Shown here: positions 42,265 to 48,970 of the stretch, one piece after another
Layout: each line of letters begins with the position of its first letter
Numbering within the stretch: the stretch's first letter is position 1
From: Lachnospiraceae bacterium
GTDB taxonomy: Bacteria; Bacillota; Clostridia; Lachnospirales; Lachnospiraceae
Assembly: GCA_017524035.1 (NCBI GenBank)
Contig: JAFWUY010000072.1
Coordinates: 1 to 48,970 of the forward strand
DNA length: 48,970 bases
Reading direction: 5' to 3'
Position numbers and translations under genes: made by a program
The notes under the pieces: model-generated
Databases searched by the model: none
What the model was told of the DNA's origin: nothing
The model's input: the letters and a program-made list of their open reading frames with translations, nothing else

Positions 42265-42636
42265 ATGAAAGATATAGAACTTGGCGCTGTACAGGAGAGA
42301 TTCGCGGATATAGTGTGGGCCAACGAGCCTATCGGATCCGGGGATCTTGTGAAGGTATGTGAGAAGGAACTCGGATGGAAGAAACCCACCACATATACGG
42401 TTCTCAGAAAGCTCTGTGAAAAGGGACTTATGAAGAATGAGGACGGAGTTGTGACCACGCTTATGAGGAGGGATGAATTCTACTCCGCAAAGAGCGAGCA
42501 GATAATCGAGGATTCCTATGAGGGATCGCTTCCCGCATTCATCGCGGCATTTACATCAAGGAAGAAGCTTTCGAATGCCGAGGTGGACGAGATACAGAAG
42601 ATGATCGACGAGTTTAAGAAGGGAAAGAAGAAATGA
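42265..42636 (+). CDS. BlaI/MecI/CopY family repressor
   Basis: A 123-residue winged-helix repressor of the BlaI/MecI/CopY family: an N-terminal DNA-binding domain with VQERFADIVWANEPIGSGDLV and KKPTTYTVLRKLCEKGLM, and a C-terminal dimer helix region with the expected protease-sensitive linker area. The ribosome site is ACGAGGTG. It overlaps the BlaR1-like gene by four bases (ATGA). It should bind the two palindromes just upstream and be cleaved when the sensor is activated. No beta-lactamase gene is in the window, so the regulated resistance or stress gene is elsewhere. Confidence 0.94.
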   Translation: MKDIELGAVQERFADIVWANEPIGSGDLVKVCEKELGWKKPTTYTVLRKLCEKGLMKNEDGVVTTLMRRDEFYSAKSEQIIEDSYEGSLPAFIAAFTSRKKLSNAEVDEIQKMIDEFKKGKKK

Positions 42637-45038
42637 GTGCAGTCTTTCTGAAAATATTAAATCTGTCCTACAGCGCATCGTGGCTTATCCTGGCCGTGAT
42701 CGCAGCAAGGCTGTTCCTAAAAAGGGCACCGAAGTGGATATCATGTATCCTTTGGGGGCTGGTGGCACTCAGGCTGCTTGTTCCCTTTACTCTTAAAAGC
42801 TCGCTCAGCCTGCTTCCCAGCAGCGAAGTGGTTCCTTCCAATATTGAGATGACGGCCACTCCGCACATCGAATCAGGTATCGCAGTACTCAACAGTACCG
42901 TCAATCCGGTCATGGAAAGCGCTCTGGCTCCGACTGAAGCCGCATCCGTAAATCCCATGCAGGTGGTGGTGCATATAGCGGGTATTGTCTGGCTGGCCGG
43001 AATTGCCCTGATGATAATCTACGCTTTTGTCAGTTATACGAAGATCAGGATCAGAACGAAAGAAGCAGCGAAAGTAAGCAAAGGGATAATGGAATGTGAC
43101 GGGATAGTATCCCCCTTTATCCTCGGAATCTTCAAACCTGTGATATATGTTCCCTCCGGGATGGAACCGGACACCATGGAACTGGTGCTGGCACATGAGA
43201 AGGCACACCTGCGCAGATGCGATCATCTGTGGAAACCTCTGGGATTCCTTCTTTTGTCCGTATACTGGTTCAATCCCTTAAGCTGGGTTGCATATGTTCT
43301 CCTTTGCAGGGATATAGAATCCGCATGCGATGAAAGAGTCATCGGCGGAAAGAGTGATGAGTACATGGCTGCGTATTCACAGGCACTTCTGGATTGCAGC
43401 GTTCAGAGAAGAAGGATCGCCGCATGCCCCGTTGCATTCGGCGAGACCGGAGTGAAGATGCGCATAAAAAATGTTCTCAATTACAAAAAGCCTGCATTCT
43501 GGATCATCATAGCCTCTCTGGCAGTGTGCGCGGTCCTGGCTGTATGTTTCCTTACAAATCCCGGGAAAGAAGAGACTGTAAGACAGGCTCTTGCGGAAGG
43601 CGAAGTTCAGCCTCAGGATACAGCTTCCGGCGTGTTTGATGAGGAAAGAGTATATTATTACAGCGGAAATCATTTTACCGGAACCGGTATGGATCCTTAT
43701 AACCTTATAGATTTTTATATATCTTTTTCTCCGGACGGAACATATACCTGGTATGAAACTCCCATAAGCAGTTTCATCGGATCCGGAACGTATTCGATCA
43801 ATGACGGAGTCATTACCATGACCGATGATGCAGAGATGACCGGAACCGAAAGAGTGAACATATTTACCATATCGGGAGAATCTATCTATTACGCAGCCGA
43901 GGGATCGGATAATTTCCACCTTGTTACACTTGCAGATCAAGACAGATTTGTTCTCGGGGTTAATCCCATAGAAGGATGGGATCAAGCCGAAGTGACGGAG
44001 GTATCTTCGACACGGCTGGTATGGCCGACGGATAAGGATCTGGTGACAAGGGGATTTTCCATAGATGCGGACGATTATCATCCCGAAACCGATATTGCCG
44101 GTGAACCGGGAGATCCCATATATGCGTCAATGAACGGAACCATAACCGAAACCGGTTATGATGAAAGGGACGGATATTATATCATCGAGAAAGCAAATGA
44201 TGCTGTTACGATAACTTATTGCCATCTTGATGAAGTGAATGTAAAGATAAACGATGTTGTCACCGCAGGTGATGTGATAGGCACCATGGGTTCTACCGGA
44301 AGGTCCACAGGCCCTCATCTGGCCATCAGATTCATGTTTGGAGATGAGCCGTATGATTTCCTTCAGCTTATCGATGCACAGAATATACATGATCTTCCCG
44401 ATGAAGGATCGGACGGATTTACATATACGTACTATTCCGAAGACGGATCGGTATATGTCAGGCAGGATTACAGAACAATGAAATCGGTGATCTGCGACGG
44501 AGATCTGGTAATACCGGTGGACATATCCATGGGTACATACGGCCCGAAGATAGCAAAGTTTGATGCGGACGGAGACGGCAAGGATGAGTATCTGATCGCA
44601 GAGTGCGAAGGGACCGGTACGGGGGTATCCCGGTACGGACTCTGCATCGTGGATGATAAGGGCTCAGGATATCAGATGACCAGATATGACAGCGATTACT
44701 TTGCCCGTCTTCTCGAGGATAATATCGGTTATGATTATGATTCCGCAAGAGGAGAATTTCTGGTATATGAGATATTGCCGCCGATGCTGAACAGATGGGA
44801 CGGAGAAAGGGTAAAGCCTTTCCCGAGGCATGACGAACTTGAAAAAATAGTCTGGTCGGATATCATCGGATTTGAATTCAGGGACGGAAAGGTGTATCTG
44901 ACCGCACCCACGGGTTACGTCTATAAGGACAGCCCCGTACCGGATTACGAAAGGGCAGTGATCGTATCGGTGGATCTGGCCATAGATGAGGATTCCGGAG
45001 TGGTTCCTCGATGGTACTACTTTGAATTGAGCGAATAA
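42633..45038 (+). CDS. BlaR1-like M56 sensor peptidase with C-terminal degenerate M23 and Asp-rich domains
   Basis: An 801-residue membrane protein. The N-terminal part (1-310) is a BlaR1/MecR1-type M56 metallopeptidase with several membrane helices and the zinc motif HEKAH (188-192) plus ESACDE (229-234). Instead of a penicillin-binding sensor it carries an extracytoplasmic beta domain (about 335-440), an M23/LytM-like domain (about 463-580) and a C-terminal domain with a DADGDGKDE loop (644-652). The M23 part keeps His483 and Asp487 of HxxxD and His562, but the last zinc ligand of the HxH motif is Ala564 (PHLAIRF). So it probably binds wall material rather than cutting it. It is cotranscribed with the repressor. 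Confidence 0.9.
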   Translation: MSAVFLKILNLSYSASWLILAVIAARLFLKRAPKWISCILWGLVALRLLVPFTLKSSLSLLPSSEVVPSNIEMTATPHIESGIAVLNSTVNPVMESALAPTEAASVNPMQVVVHIAGIVWLAGIALMIIYAFVSYTKIRIRTKEAAKVSKGIMECDGIVSPFILGIFKPVIYVPSGMEPDTMELVLAHEKAHLRRCDHLWKPLGFLLLSVYWFNPLSWVAYVLLCRDIESACDERVIGGKSDEYMAAYSQALLDCSVQRRRIAACPVAFGETGVKMRIKNVLNYKKPAFWIIIASLAVCAVLAVCFLTNPGKEETVRQALAEGEVQPQDTASGVFDEERVYYYSGNHFTGTGMDPYNLIDFYISFSPDGTYTWYETPISSFIGSGTYSINDGVITMTDDAEMTGTERVNIFTISGESIYYAAEGSDNFHLVTLADQDRFVLGVNPIEGWDQAEVTEVSSTRLVWPTDKDLVTRGFSIDADDYHPETDIAGEPGDPIYASMNGTITETGYDERDGYYIIEKANDAVTITYCHLDEVNVKINDVVTAGDVIGTMGSTGRSTGPHLAIRFMFGDEPYDFLQLIDAQNIHDLPDEGSDGFTYTYYSEDGSVYVRQDYRTMKSVICDGDLVIPVDISMGTYGPKIAKFDADGDGKDEYLIAECEGTGTGVSRYGLCIVDDKGSGYQMTRYDSDYFARLLEDNIGYDYDSARGEFLVYEILPPMLNRWDGERVKPFPRHDELEKIVWSDIIGFEFRDGKVYLTAPTGYVYKDSPVPDYERAVIVSVDLAIDEDSGVVPRWYYFELSE

Positions 45039-45431: not shown

Positions 45432-46105
45432 ATGAAAGAACTAAGTGTATTTATAGATGAATCCGGAGATTTTGGCGATATTAAAGATAATCATGAAAAT
45501 TATCTTGTTACATTTGTGTTTCATAATCAATTGGATGACATCTCATCAGAAATAAACACACTAGAAAAGAAAATTAAAGATCTTAAATTGAATGTCGAAT
45601 ATATCCATACGGGACCAATCATAAGAAGAGAAGGTATATTTCAGAAGTTCTCGTTGGATGAAAGACGAAATCTGATATACAAAATCTTAAATTTTTCAAT
45701 TAAATGTCCGGTGAAATATCATTGTGTCATAATAAACAGAAATGATGCATTTGATAAAGTTCAATTATCCGGAAAATAGGTCGTGCAATTAACGAAATGC
45801 TCCGTCAGAATAAGGATTATCTGGATTCATTTGATAAAGTGATCGTATACTACGATAATGGTCAACGAGAACTTAGTTCGATTTTGAATGCTATTTTATC
45901 CATTAATTTAAAGAATGTTGAATTCAGAAAGGCCGACCCTAGAGAGTATCGTTTGTTGCAGACTGCCGATTTCTTCTGTACTATGGAATTGCTTGGGATT
46001 AAGAGGGAAGAAAATCGGCTTAGTAATAGCGAGAAAAAATTCTTCTACAAACCTAACGAACTAAAGAAAACATTTTTAATAGGTATAAAAAAGAAAAGAT
46101 TATAA
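45432..46105 (+). pseudogene. DUF3800 family protein, split by a -1 frameshift
   Basis: The first piece (45432-45779) begins MKELSVFIDESGDFG, the metal-binding N-terminal signature of DUF3800 proteins, and ends at LSGK. The second piece continues from IGRAINEMLRQNKDYLDSFDKVIVYYDNGQ and TADFFCTMELLGIK, the matching C-terminal half, in another frame. Adding one A to the run GGAAAATAGG (about 45771-45780) joins them into about 224 residues. DUF3800 proteins have an RNase H-like fold and are common in mobile and defence regions; the molecular role is unknown. The gene is clearly more AT-rich than those to the left. It may be decay or a homopolymer error. Confidence 0.85.
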
Positions 46106-46228: not shown

Positions 46229-46260
46229 TGTAAGTTTTATCGATATTTGTTGTCTATAAT
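46229..46260 (+). promoter_or_regulatory. Putative ECF-type promoter of the sigma factor/serpin operon
   Basis: TGTAAG (46229-46234) lies 17 bases before GTCTA within TTGTCTATAAT (46250-46260). TGTAAC/G with N16-17 and a CGTC- or GTC-like -10 is the pattern of SigX/SigV-type ECF promoters, so the sigma factor may drive its own gene. The same bases include TATAAT (46255-46260), so a housekeeping -10 is also possible. Confidence 0.45.
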
Positions 46261-46281
46261 AGTGAAAGGAGGGCCCTGAAA

Positions 46282-46842
46282 ATGAGGGATGAGGAAATAG
46301 TAAAACTATATTGGGCGAGAAATGAGCGTGCAATTTCTGAATCATCCGCCAAATACGGTTCTTACTGTATGACCATTGCAGGTAATATATTATCCGATGA
46401 CGAAGATGCAAAAGAATGCGTGAACGACACTTGGCTTCACGCCTGGAATTCCATGCCTCCGCAAAAGCCTTCTTTTTTGTCTTCTTTTCTCGGAAAGATC
46501 ACAAGGAATCTTTCTTTTAACAGATATAGGGAAAAGCACCGGGCAAAAAGGGGCGGAAACAATATTACTCTGATCCTTGAGGAACTGGAGGATATCGTTT
46601 CGGGAAATGAATCCCCTGAAGAAGCTATCCTCAAAAACGAACTAAAAAATGAAATTGATAATTTCCTCTCTGCACTTCCCGACACAAAAAAATATATGTT
46701 TATCCGAAGATATTGGTATGCAGACTCCATTGCAGAAATTGCGAGGCGATTTGCCACAACCGATAATAATGTATCCGTAACGCTTAGCAGGATCCGCAAG
46801 GAACTCAGATCCCAGTTAAGAGGAAGGGGGTATATCATATGA
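46282..46842 (+). CDS. ECF-type RNA polymerase sigma factor
   Basis: A 186-residue sigma-70 family factor with only regions 2 and 4. Region 2 includes ILSDDEDAKECVNDTWLHAWN and a KITRNLSFNRYR helix; a linker leads to region 4 with ALPDTKKYMFIRRYWYADSIAEIARRF and the recognition helix TDNNVSVTLSRIRKEL. The ribosome site is AAAGGAGGG, a little distant (10 bases). Its end overlaps the start of the membrane-anchored serpin by four bases, the position normally taken by the anti-sigma factor. That makes the serpin protein its likely controller. Confidence 0.9.
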   Translation: MRDEEIVKLYWARNERAISESSAKYGSYCMTIAGNILSDDEDAKECVNDTWLHAWNSMPPQKPSFLSSFLGKITRNLSFNRYREKHRAKRGGNNITLILEELEDIVSGNESPEEAILKNELKNEIDNFLSALPDTKKYMFIRRYWYADSIAEIARRFATTDNNVSVTLSRIRKELRSQLRGRGYII

Positions 46843-48440
46843 AATCCGAAGAATTATTCGAAGTTCTGAATGACATAAATGAAAATAATGTAAAGAAGGC
46901 TGAAACGTTCACTGTAAGGAAAGGGCTTTCAATTAGGAAAATCCTTCCGTATGCATGTGTAGCAGCTGCATTTCTTGTTGTTCTTATCAGTATTCCTGTG
47001 ATCAGAATGATCACTGAAGACAGTGCTGTTCTAAACGGAAATGCGGTATCGGAATCAAACACCGGTTCTAGTACGGACAATACAGTTATAACAGATGTGG
47101 ATTTACAGCTTGGTAACGGTGAGGATAATTACAATAATCCGTCCGATGCATATGATGACTTTTATCCCGACGATTATTCCGTTTCCGAAAAAATCCGGGT
47201 CATAAAAGCAGGCATTCCGGGACCGTCAGGCGTGAACATGACCTCTCAGGAATTCATGGAGGGGGAAGTTCATTGGGAATGGTGGAGTGATTACAGTCGT
47301 TGGTTATCCGCATCATTGGAACTTGATCTGGATATGGATGATTATTATCTTTCACTGATGGAACAGATGCTTGTATCCGATGATGAAAATACCGTGTGTT
47401 CTCCGCTCAATACCTTCATTGCATTATCCATGCTTGCAGAGGTTTCAAATGGAAATACAAGACGTCAGATACTCGATATGCTTGGGGTTTCGGATATCGA
47501 AACTCTCAGATCCATCGTCAGCACTCTGTGGAACAGCAATTATATCAATACTCCTGAATTAAAGAGCATACTTTCAAATTCAATGTGGCTGAACGAAGCG
47601 GTGACATACAATGATGAAACATTGAACAGACTTGCGGAAAGTTATTATGCATCTTCTTTTATCGGCAATCCCGGAGATCCGGATATGAGTGCTGCACTCC
47701 GTGCCTGGACAGATCACAATACCGGAGGATTATTGGAAGAGTACACAAATGATCTTGGACTTGAACCGGCAACGATCATGGCCCTTGTTTCGACTGTATA
47801 TTATAAGGCTATGTGGGCCGAAGAGTTCAATGAAGGAGCAACTACCCGGGAATCGTTCCATGGAATAAGCGGAGATTCTTTCGTGGATATGATGCATTCG
47901 GACGGTCTTTACAGTGTATACCGTACCGAAAACTTCACATCACTTGGTCTGAGCCTGACAGAAAGCGGTTCAATGTACTTCTATCTTCCGAACGATGGTG
48001 TGGATGTCAATTCTCTTATTTCGGATCCTGACATCATAAAAGCAATGCCGGGGGTTACGTATGAGGAAACGGAAGATCCAAACCGGTCTTACTGCCTTGT
48101 ACATATGTCTGTTCCAAAATTCAATATTTCATATAAATCGGATCTGTTAGAGATATTAAAGGCTCTCGGAATTACGGATGCCCTTGACCCAAAATGCTCT
48201 GATTTTACTCCGCTGACCACGGATACGGATATATATGTAAGCAGAGCAGAACATGCTGCAATGGTCGAAATAGATGAGCACGGTGTTACCGGAGCTGCAT
48301 ATACCGCATTGATGCTTGATGGTATGGGATCTCCTGTAATTGAAGATGAAATTGACTTTGTACTGGACAGACCGTTTATGTTCGTTATAACGGGCTTTGA
48401 TGGATCGATACTCTTTTCGGGGATTGTAAGAAATATATGA
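46839..48440 (+). CDS. Membrane-anchored serpin with anti-sigma-like N-terminus
   Basis: A 533-residue protein. Residues 1-35 (MKSEELFEVLNDINENNVKK and on) look like the short cytoplasmic arm of clostridial anti-sigma proteins. A membrane helix follows (about 36-57), then an acidic linker (60-160) and a full serpin domain (about 165-533). Serpin landmarks are CSPLNTFIALSMLAEVSNGNTRRQIL, VSTVYYKAMWAEEF, VHMSVPKFNISY and a C-terminal DRPFMFVI. The hinge reads VEIDEHGVTGAAYTAL in place of the usual EEGTEAAAAT. By count P1 is Met496 in DGMGSP. It may inhibit a protease outside the cell and signal to the sigma factor encoded directly upstream. Confidence 0.88.
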   Translation: MKSEELFEVLNDINENNVKKAETFTVRKGLSIRKILPYACVAAAFLVVLISIPVIRMITEDSAVLNGNAVSESNTGSSTDNTVITDVDLQLGNGEDNYNNPSDAYDDFYPDDYSVSEKIRVIKAGIPGPSGVNMTSQEFMEGEVHWEWWSDYSRWLSASLELDLDMDDYYLSLMEQMLVSDDENTVCSPLNTFIALSMLAEVSNGNTRRQILDMLGVSDIETLRSIVSTLWNSNYINTPELKSILSNSMWLNEAVTYNDETLNRLAESYYASSFIGNPGDPDMSAALRAWTDHNTGGLLEEYTNDLGLEPATIMALVSTVYYKAMWAEEFNEGATTRESFHGISGDSFVDMMHSDGLYSVYRTENFTSLGLSLTESGSMYFYLPNDGVDVNSLISDPDIIKAMPGVTYEETEDPNRSYCLVHMSVPKFNISYKSDLLEILKALGITDALDPKCSDFTPLTTDTDIYVSRAEHAAMVEIDEHGVTGAAYTALMLDGMGSPVIEDEIDFVLDRPFMFVITGFDGSILFSGIVRNI

Positions 48441-48558: not shown

Positions 48559-48970
48559 ATGATGAAAAAGATATTCACAGCAATTTTGCTGATGTGTTTA
48601 TTATCTTTGCTTGGATGTGCAAATGCTCAAGACGAAATCGGTTTTTGCCCGACATTGCCTGGGGCCGATGAGATATATCCGACTATTCTCGTTGATGGTG
48701 ATTGCTATCAATGGAGAAGAGGGCGCGCGGTAATGAATGAAGATGTGGTTAACCATGCTAACTATGATCCGGAAATTTTTCTGAAGGATATGGTTTTGTA
48801 TGGAGAGATAATAAAGGAAAGTGGTGATCATCCGGAACATGATCGAGGATTGGTCTGTGTATTTGATGCATCAGGGACGGTTTATCTTGATCCTTATGAT
48901 GAAAATGTAGTTTATCTATGGCTTACCACGGATTGGTTTGAAGACGGAGTTATAGCATTTGACAAGGTAA
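48559..48970 (+). CDS. Lipoprotein of unknown function (3'-truncated by window edge)
   Basis: The reading frame from ATG 48559 stays open to the window end (137 codons). MMKKIFTAILLMCLLSLLGC is a lipoprotein signal with lipobox LLGC and the lipidated Cys at residue 20. The mature part (ANAQDEIGFCPTLPGADEI, then VDGDCYQWRRGRAV) is not recognised; VDGDCYQW is a phrase seen in small clostridial lipoproteins. AGAGGAG lies six bases upstream. It begins 118 bases after the serpin with no terminator between, so it may belong to the same sigma-controlled operon. Confidence 0.8.
   Translation, partial: MMKKIFTAILLMCLLSLLGCANAQDEIGFCPTLPGADEIYPTILVDGDCYQWRRGRAVMNEDVVNHANYDPEIFLKDMVLYGEIIKESGDHPEHDRGLVCVFDASGTVYLDPYDENVVYLWLTTDWFEDGVIAFDKV

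Follow-up and report, generated by a model that had tools for sequence, protein, structure and literature searches.

An extracytoplasmic function (ECF) sigma factor and a membrane-anchored serpin are encoded by overlapping genes near the 3' end of the window analysed here, a stretch of 48,970 nucleotides from a Lachnospiraceae bacterium (assembly GCA_017524035.1, contig JAFWUY010000072.1, positions 1 to 48,970 of the forward strand). An earlier sequence-only reading had described a sigma factor joined by an ATGA overlap to a protein with a short arm, a single membrane helix, a linker and a full serpin domain, and the open reading frames (ORFs) and Pfam matches confirm this arrangement. The pairing is a recurrent clostridial module, and comparison of the sequences makes it very probable that the second protein, hereafter the arm-serpin, acts as an anti-sigma factor and has a serpin as its ectodomain. 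On balance we consider it probable that the two form a sigma/anti-sigma module in which the serpin is the sensor and the sigma factor is freed after a protease has been trapped, the sensing of the protease and the release being the steps that we infer. The elements of the pair are the following:

46229–46258, + strand: ECF-type promoter-like element TGTAAG-N17-GTCTATA, 5' of the sigma gene
46282–46842, + strand: ECF sigma factor gene (ORF, 186 aa; regions 2 and 4)
46839–48440, + strand: arm-serpin gene, very probably for a membrane-anchored anti-sigma factor with a serpin ectodomain (ORF, 533 aa)
46839–46955, + strand: cytoplasmic arm, residues 1–39 (arm profile 28.4 bits, E 7.8e-9)
46956–47012, + strand: single membrane helix, residues 40–58, N-in (from hydropathy and charge)
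47013–47348, + strand: extracellular linker, with an acidic membrane-near part; conservation is low as far as residue 120 and higher in the stretch before the serpin
47349–48434, + strand: complete serpin domain, residues 171–532 (PF00079, 207.8 bits, E 3.7e-61, profile 8–369 of 370)
48276–48305, + strand: reactive-loop hinge EHGVTGAAYT (about P17–P8), inhibitory type

Recurrence of the sigma–serpin pair

The comparison drew on overlapping search sets (193 relatives, 397 members of the family and 391 of the class) and on 40 further stretches; because only the better matches were given loci, the counts are no census of clostridial serpins. The loci hold 132 distinct serpins, 131 of which were long enough to align, and in 34 of these 131 a sigma gene lies at most 210 bases upstream on the same strand, mostly with a gap of −4. 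The pairing is more than a chance one. Two of the 34 (L026b and L027b) were labelled by hand after longer stretches had been taken; the remaining serpins were labelled 'arm without sigma' (four) or 'arm, cut off' (one), both by eye, or 'none' (92). In part of these 92 a sigma ORF lies farther upstream or downstream, or the upstream region is cut off by the end of the contig or locus, and one of them, L135 (4.3 bits to the arm profile described below), is an arm-like serpin separated from a sigma gene by a serpin fragment (L218).

By tree labels, the 34 sigma-linked serpins span six families (f1, f8, f36, f39, f59 and f89); L005 and L006 are additional to these, their records carrying different family names. 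The sigma label needs 20 changes on the serpin tree, at least 11 of which are forced by well supported branches. Five relatives were found in genome contigs, and the overlapping pair is present in all four that cover the whole protein (L003–L006), the fifth (L007) being a fragment of residues 454–533 only. A search of 120 genomes for the sigma factor gave a match at E 1e-15 or better in 51, and the sigma factor is serpin-linked in at least 12 of the same 120. The source genome, whose assembly is 76.8% complete, contains one second serpin match, of lipoprotein type, on contig C1 (locus L001), and no sigma ORF of this kind is present at that locus.

The arm as an anti-sigma segment

The sigma factor belongs to the ECF (group IV sigma-70) factors that contain regions 2 and 4 only. 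It matches Sigma70_r2 (residues 30–87, E 5.6e-7) and Sigma70_r4_2 (residues 123–175, E 1.9e-7) over the Pfam cut-offs as well as TIGR02937 (69.6 bits, cut-off 42.9), and its best solved chain by sequence is SigW (5wuq, E 1.2e-5). A separate anti-sigma gene adjoining the pair was looked for within the window and none was seen, in keeping with the earlier proposal that the arm-serpin gene occupies the anti-sigma position.

Sister sigma factors were found to be followed by one-helix proteins that carry the same arm and different outer parts. Among the 132 distinct sigma sequences in the loci, 127 have readable partners, four have partners that are cut off and one has none. The commonest gap in the 127 pairs is −4; a helix with at least 20 residues ahead of it is present in 123 partners, and 121 score above 10 bits to the arm profile. 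The arm-serpin of the window thus both overlaps its sigma gene and carries the N-terminal segment common to the sister partners. An alignment of the window protein with L003–L006 shows that this segment is conserved, with 12 of the first 21 residues identical in all five sequences versus one among residues 22–60. The one other sigma match of the source genome (contig C63, locus L039) likewise has an arm-type partner, which is without a Pfam match. Beside sister sigma factors in the window's genus, the arm proteins of L045, L046, L048 and L052 apparently have one shared ectodomain, as judged by eye; L045, the only one of them that was scanned, gave no match in Pfam.

The training set of the arm profile consisted of 27 partners of sister sigma factors, none of them a serpin, and of the 100 partners outside the training set 94 scored above 10 bits, including 32 of 36 serpins. 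Scores of at least 12.8 bits were reached by 31 of the 34 sigma-linked serpins, and scores of at most 12.3 bits were given by the 89 scorable serpins of the 92 labelled 'none', the other three N-termini being too short. The four serpins labelled by eye as having an arm without a sigma gene scored 36.7 (L133), 33.6 (L080), 12.3 (L072) and 8.0 bits (L116). L080 and L072 group on the serpin tree with the complete pair L114, and the genome of L133 carries another pair, L086. The suggestion that the N-terminus resembles anti-sigma arms thus stands as far as the arms of sister ECF partners are concerned, while none of the listed Pfam and NCBIfam matches covers the arm as a named anti-sigma domain.

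The association of arm and sigma gene was evaluated across 121 rows (8 with cut-off upstream and the too-short N-termini left out) at an arm threshold of 12.5 bits, which 31 of the 34 sigma-linked serpins exceeded versus two of the 87 other rows. Independent contrasts were taken on supported branches. In the 10 that differ in the sigma gene, the arm agrees in six or seven, is unchanged in the others and disagrees in none (median p 0.031); in the eight that differ in the arm, the sigma gene agrees mostly in seven and disagrees in none (median p 0.016). When the threshold was lowered to 10 bits, one of 200 pairings in each direction showed one disagreement.

Co-variation between arm and sigma factor was analysed in 121 pairs, the six of 127 whose arms scored no more than 10 bits having been left out. 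The arm core was defined as the profile columns up to 23, and the columns nearer and in the membrane served as control. The mean mutual information of the ten strongest couplings between arm core and sigma factor was 0.170, above the maximum of 0.114 in 100 permutations among related sigma factors, and the membrane-side control columns gave a mean of 0.099, a value matched or exceeded in 63 of 100 permutations. The strongest couplings connect arm columns 16 and 19 with sigma positions 126–138, at the start of region 4; further strong ones connect arm columns 6, 3 and 2 with sigma positions 95, 83 and 76, and others are scattered (for example 148 with 22 and 14 with 21). Nine of the 15 strongest arm-core couplings fall in sigma 4, which accounts for 33% of the columns, versus four of 15 for the control region. 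When couplings trained on 89 non-serpin pairs were scored on the 32 serpin pairs, none of 2000 permutations was as good as the true arms at any of four cut-offs. In swaps with related sigma factors (42–70% identity), the true arm scored higher in 77% of 502 comparisons. The window arm ranks second of 32 for its own sigma factor. Median ranks of the true arm lie between 3.5 and 9 among the 32, which makes the signal clear on average and not decisive for the individual pair.

When mapped on the sigma tree of 127 rows, the serpin label requires 21 changes, of which at least eight are forced, and ectodomains therefore appear to have been swapped on a common sigma–arm chassis. Together, the arm profile, the co-variation and the association of arm and sigma gene on the tree strongly support, at the level of sequence, the anti-sigma role proposed for the arm. 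They support its assignment as the putative sigma-binding segment of an anti-sigma family of clostridia whose ectodomains are many and diverse, the co-variation in particular favouring contact between arm and sigma factor.

The serpin trap and release of the sigma factor

The serpin domain is complete and has a hinge of the inhibitory kind, and the solved serpins related to it by sequence include conserpin (5cdx) and tengpin (2vh4). Inhibitory serpins are recognised by a hinge with glycine at P15, a small residue at P14, small residues at P12–P10 and threonine or a small residue at P8. The window hinge, GVTGAAYT, satisfies this pattern, as do the hinges of 33 of the 34 sigma-linked serpins, all five other arm-labelled serpins and 88 of the remaining 92. 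Since the hinge is kept in sigma-linked and free serpins alike, the sensors look equally able to trap, and this supports the prediction that the arm-anchored serpin is still trap-competent. Counting from the hinge places P1 near Met496; its position is not fixed by the sequence, and the loop differs in the closest relatives. A positively charged stretch precedes the membrane helix of the window protein, and the charge bias is N-in in all 34 arm-serpins examined, which supports a location of the serpin outside the cell. The linkers between helix and serpin, measured to the best-scoring serpin domain, range from 53 to 144 residues (median 85) in 34 arm-serpins, lengths which favour release by cutting and disfavour transmission of a rigid change of shape.

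Protease-triggered release is the most likely reading of these features. At rest, the arm would hold the sigma factor at the membrane. An extracellular protease attacking the reactive loop would be trapped by the one-way change of the serpin, and the spent or protease-loaded anchor could then be cut in the linker, whether by the attacking protease, a site-1 protease of the host or another enzyme. A site-2 protease would clear the cut anchor from the membrane, thus freeing the sigma factor to re-make its own operon and so restore both sensor and inhibitor; in some species the sigma factor may also drive production of additional serpins, secreted or of lipoprotein type. The cell would thus be alerted by the loss of intact trap and would respond by making more of it. 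Proteases that could serve in such a pathway are encoded in the source genome, namely an M50 site-2 protease and a PrsW-like protease, the gene of the latter lying at 2160–2720 of contig C63, which also carries the other sigma factor (L039). A stronger version of this model, to which we give rather less than an even chance, regards the arm-serpin as a suicide sensor, one irreversible covalent trap that is inhibitor, receptor and anti-sigma factor at once. Each captured protease would destroy one anti-sigma molecule, such that sigma activity counts the captured proteases, and serpins would be re-made until the attack was over. In the same version, clostridia would have assembled and dismantled the module repeatedly as serpin domains were added to and removed from a shared sigma-binding arm.

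The output of the module may be judged from operons that hold further serpins. In L154 and L155, the sigma gene and the arm-serpin gene are followed by a lipoprotein-type serpin; in L157 a second serpin lies one gene beyond the pair; L173 has two pairs in tandem; and the order in L204 is sigma factor, secreted serpin, arm-serpin. In four further loci (L138, L143, L151 and L220), a sigma factor and a non-serpin arm protein precede a lipoprotein-type serpin, the lipobox of L151 being assigned by eye and the serpin of L220 being cut off by the contig end. The extra serpins in some operons make serpins a plausible output of this type of sigma factor. As a separate observation, a remoter sigma factor and its partner lie ahead of two consecutive lipoprotein-type serpins in L217 (4135–8501).

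The promoter-like element begins at position 46229, exactly where the stretch singled out by the sequence-only reading begins, and is perhaps autoregulatory. With the same 17-base spacing it precedes the sigma genes of L003 and L004 (no mismatches), L006 and L168 (one) and L005 (two), and it is weak or absent 5' of many remoter sigma genes. The copy in the window is the only exact match in the source genome; one further place appears when up to two mismatches are allowed, a yield comparable with that of reversed-pattern controls (two and three matches). Shuffle values for the element are biased towards the consensus, because it was drawn by eye from the same sequences.

Several observations weigh against protease-triggered release through a sigma-bound arm. 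With respect to the arm, three sigma-linked serpins (L122, L148 and L092) score at most 8.4 bits and may bear another arm type. The sequence-only reading had named serpins found without any sigma gene as evidence against itself. Serpins with no sigma gene beside them are numerous; nearly all of these are also without the arm, but L080 and L133 keep a clear arm with no adjacent sigma gene. A class-set arm label, which agreed in eight of 10 contrasts, is partly circular, and the profile-measured contrasts that replace it are weaker. The co-variation may partly reflect shared ancestry, which the controls reduce and do not remove. With respect to trapping and release, one sigma-linked serpin (L152) is without the hinge, and no common site-1 motif was seen; a loose AXA-like pattern follows the helix in 17 of the 34 arm-serpins, including that of the window, and is not present in L003–L006. 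With respect to output, an extra serpin was found only at few of the loci examined, the promoter pattern yields no wider regulon in the 76.8% complete genome, and the lipoprotein serpin on C1 of the same genome has no match to the pattern.

Among the alternatives, the one that survives best is still unlikely. In this explanation the serpin is a shield that disarms the first proteases and the exposed linker is a bait, such that an attacker that overwhelms the serpin cuts the linker and frees the sigma factor, with the serpin setting the threshold. Linkers that are long and very variable, a membrane-near linker that is unconserved in the alignment of the window protein with L003–L006 versus a conserved arm and serpin, and the lack of a common site-1 motif are all consistent with such a tether. 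It would require that the capacity of the serpin be tuned to the tether, and the sister anti-sigma factors, in which this arm is joined to other ectodomains, suggest instead that the ectodomain itself is the sensor. It is quite improbable that the signal for the serpin is not a protease at all but, for example, heat, a glycan or a binding partner shifting its metastable fold, or misfolding in the envelope. The metastability of serpins and, in some of them, the binding of polysaccharide cofactors would suit this role, and by eye no protease gene was noticed beside the pairs, whose neighbours were not scanned against a family library; but the hinge for trapping is kept in nearly all sigma-linked serpins, and a pure binding sensor would not need it. 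More improbable again is that the serpin is cargo only, with the operon making a surface serpin and the arm feeding back on the sigma level without signal-driven release. The occurrence of the pair as a two-gene unit at several loci and the autoregulatory-looking promoter of the closest relatives would fit cargo, but the arm tracks the sigma gene across the serpin tree, lipoprotein serpins are mostly without either, and the same arm family bears many unlike ectodomains. That the arm serves only to anchor the protein in the membrane, beside a sigma gene with no functional link to it, has a negligible probability and is contradicted by the co-variation, the recurrent pairing, the arm profile and the tree contrasts.

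Neighbouring genes and comparison with known systems

Lipoprotein-type genes follow the sigma–serpin pair in the window (48559–48970) and in its two closest relatives (L003, 3509–6996; L004, 5706–8359). Part of the window lipoprotein resembles, by eye, the outer domain of a different arm protein (L191), a hint that serpins may not be the only domains common to sensor and effector. Upstream of the pair, at 42265–45038, a short ORF (BlaI-like by eye) overlaps a gene whose product combines an M56 peptidase domain of BlaR1 type with an M23 peptidase domain. This protein may be a further case of a membrane sensor, here joined to an enzyme of the cell wall. A DUF3800-like gene at 45432–46105 is divided between two ORFs, and each half fits its own part of the Pfam model just below the cut-off.

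Among the open-licence papers listed by literature searches no sigma-linked serpin anti-sigma system was found, and mention elsewhere is possible. Excerpts of PMC10059941, PMC3413522, PMC12484212 and PMC3990059 mention both serpin and anti-sigma, not joined in one protein; the comparisons that follow likewise draw on excerpts of the papers cited, except for a 2021 serpin phylogeny (PMC8233489), which reports that some prokaryotic serpins are membrane anchored and whose main text has no word beginning with 'sigma'. Two classes of anti-sigma domain have been distinguished (PMC7406223). The class I domain comprises 101 ± 33 residues, partly with an Hx3Cx2C motif, and does not correspond to the arm of 39 residues, which has neither histidine nor cysteine. 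Class II (CnrY-like) arms have fewer than 50 residues, with two helices that touch sigma 4 and sigma 2; the length of the arm fits this range, and it may be a class II-like short arm. Neither DUF3298/DUF4163 of the RsiV family nor the RsgI N-domain was among the Pfam matches (E up to 10, with HMMER filters dropping most above 0.1).

The serpin domain itself is shared with the siropins of a gut clostridium, which inhibit elastase-like proteases (PMC8201313), with tengpin and with other bacterial serpins, for which the excerpts describe no regulatory arm. In gut-type clostridia, a serpin wired to a sigma factor would link extracellular protease directly to gene expression. Control of a bacterial serpin gene by protease, as proposed here, has a counterpart in Bifidobacterium breve, where the serpin is induced by papain (PMC8012564); there, unlike in the present proposal, a two-component system beside the serpin operon does the sensing and the serpin is the output.

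In its logic, the module is closest to RsiV–lysozyme and BlaR1. A clostridial anti-sigma family with interchangeable outer domains is also seen in SigI–RsgI of Clostridium thermocellum and Acetivibrio cellulolyticus, although SigI is a different sigma type. The outer domains of these systems (CBM3, CBM42, CBM35, PA14-like and GH) were proposed to be polysaccharide sensors (PMC3413522). In the beta-lactam sensors BlaR1 and MecR1, the sensor domain resembles the effector enzyme and is covalently modified by the signal (PMC7593790), and sensor and effector serpins are likewise related here; BlaR1 differs in being a metalloprotease that acts on a repressor, with no sigma factor. In SigV–RsiV of Bacillus subtilis and C. 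difficile, as proposed for the pair described here, an ECF sigma factor is held by a one-helix membrane protein, and the RsiV ectodomain recognises a host enzyme, RsiV being an anti-sigma factor and lysozyme receptor whose stepwise proteolysis frees the sigma factor (PMC4183432; PMC7593790). The arm-serpin differs in its serpin ectodomain, whose ligand would be a covalently trapped protease, and in having no common AXA signal-peptidase site. If the proposed mechanism is true, it would provide an irreversible, stoichiometric protease reporter for laboratory strains, and proteases would join lysozyme among the enzymes sensed directly by an anti-sigma factor.

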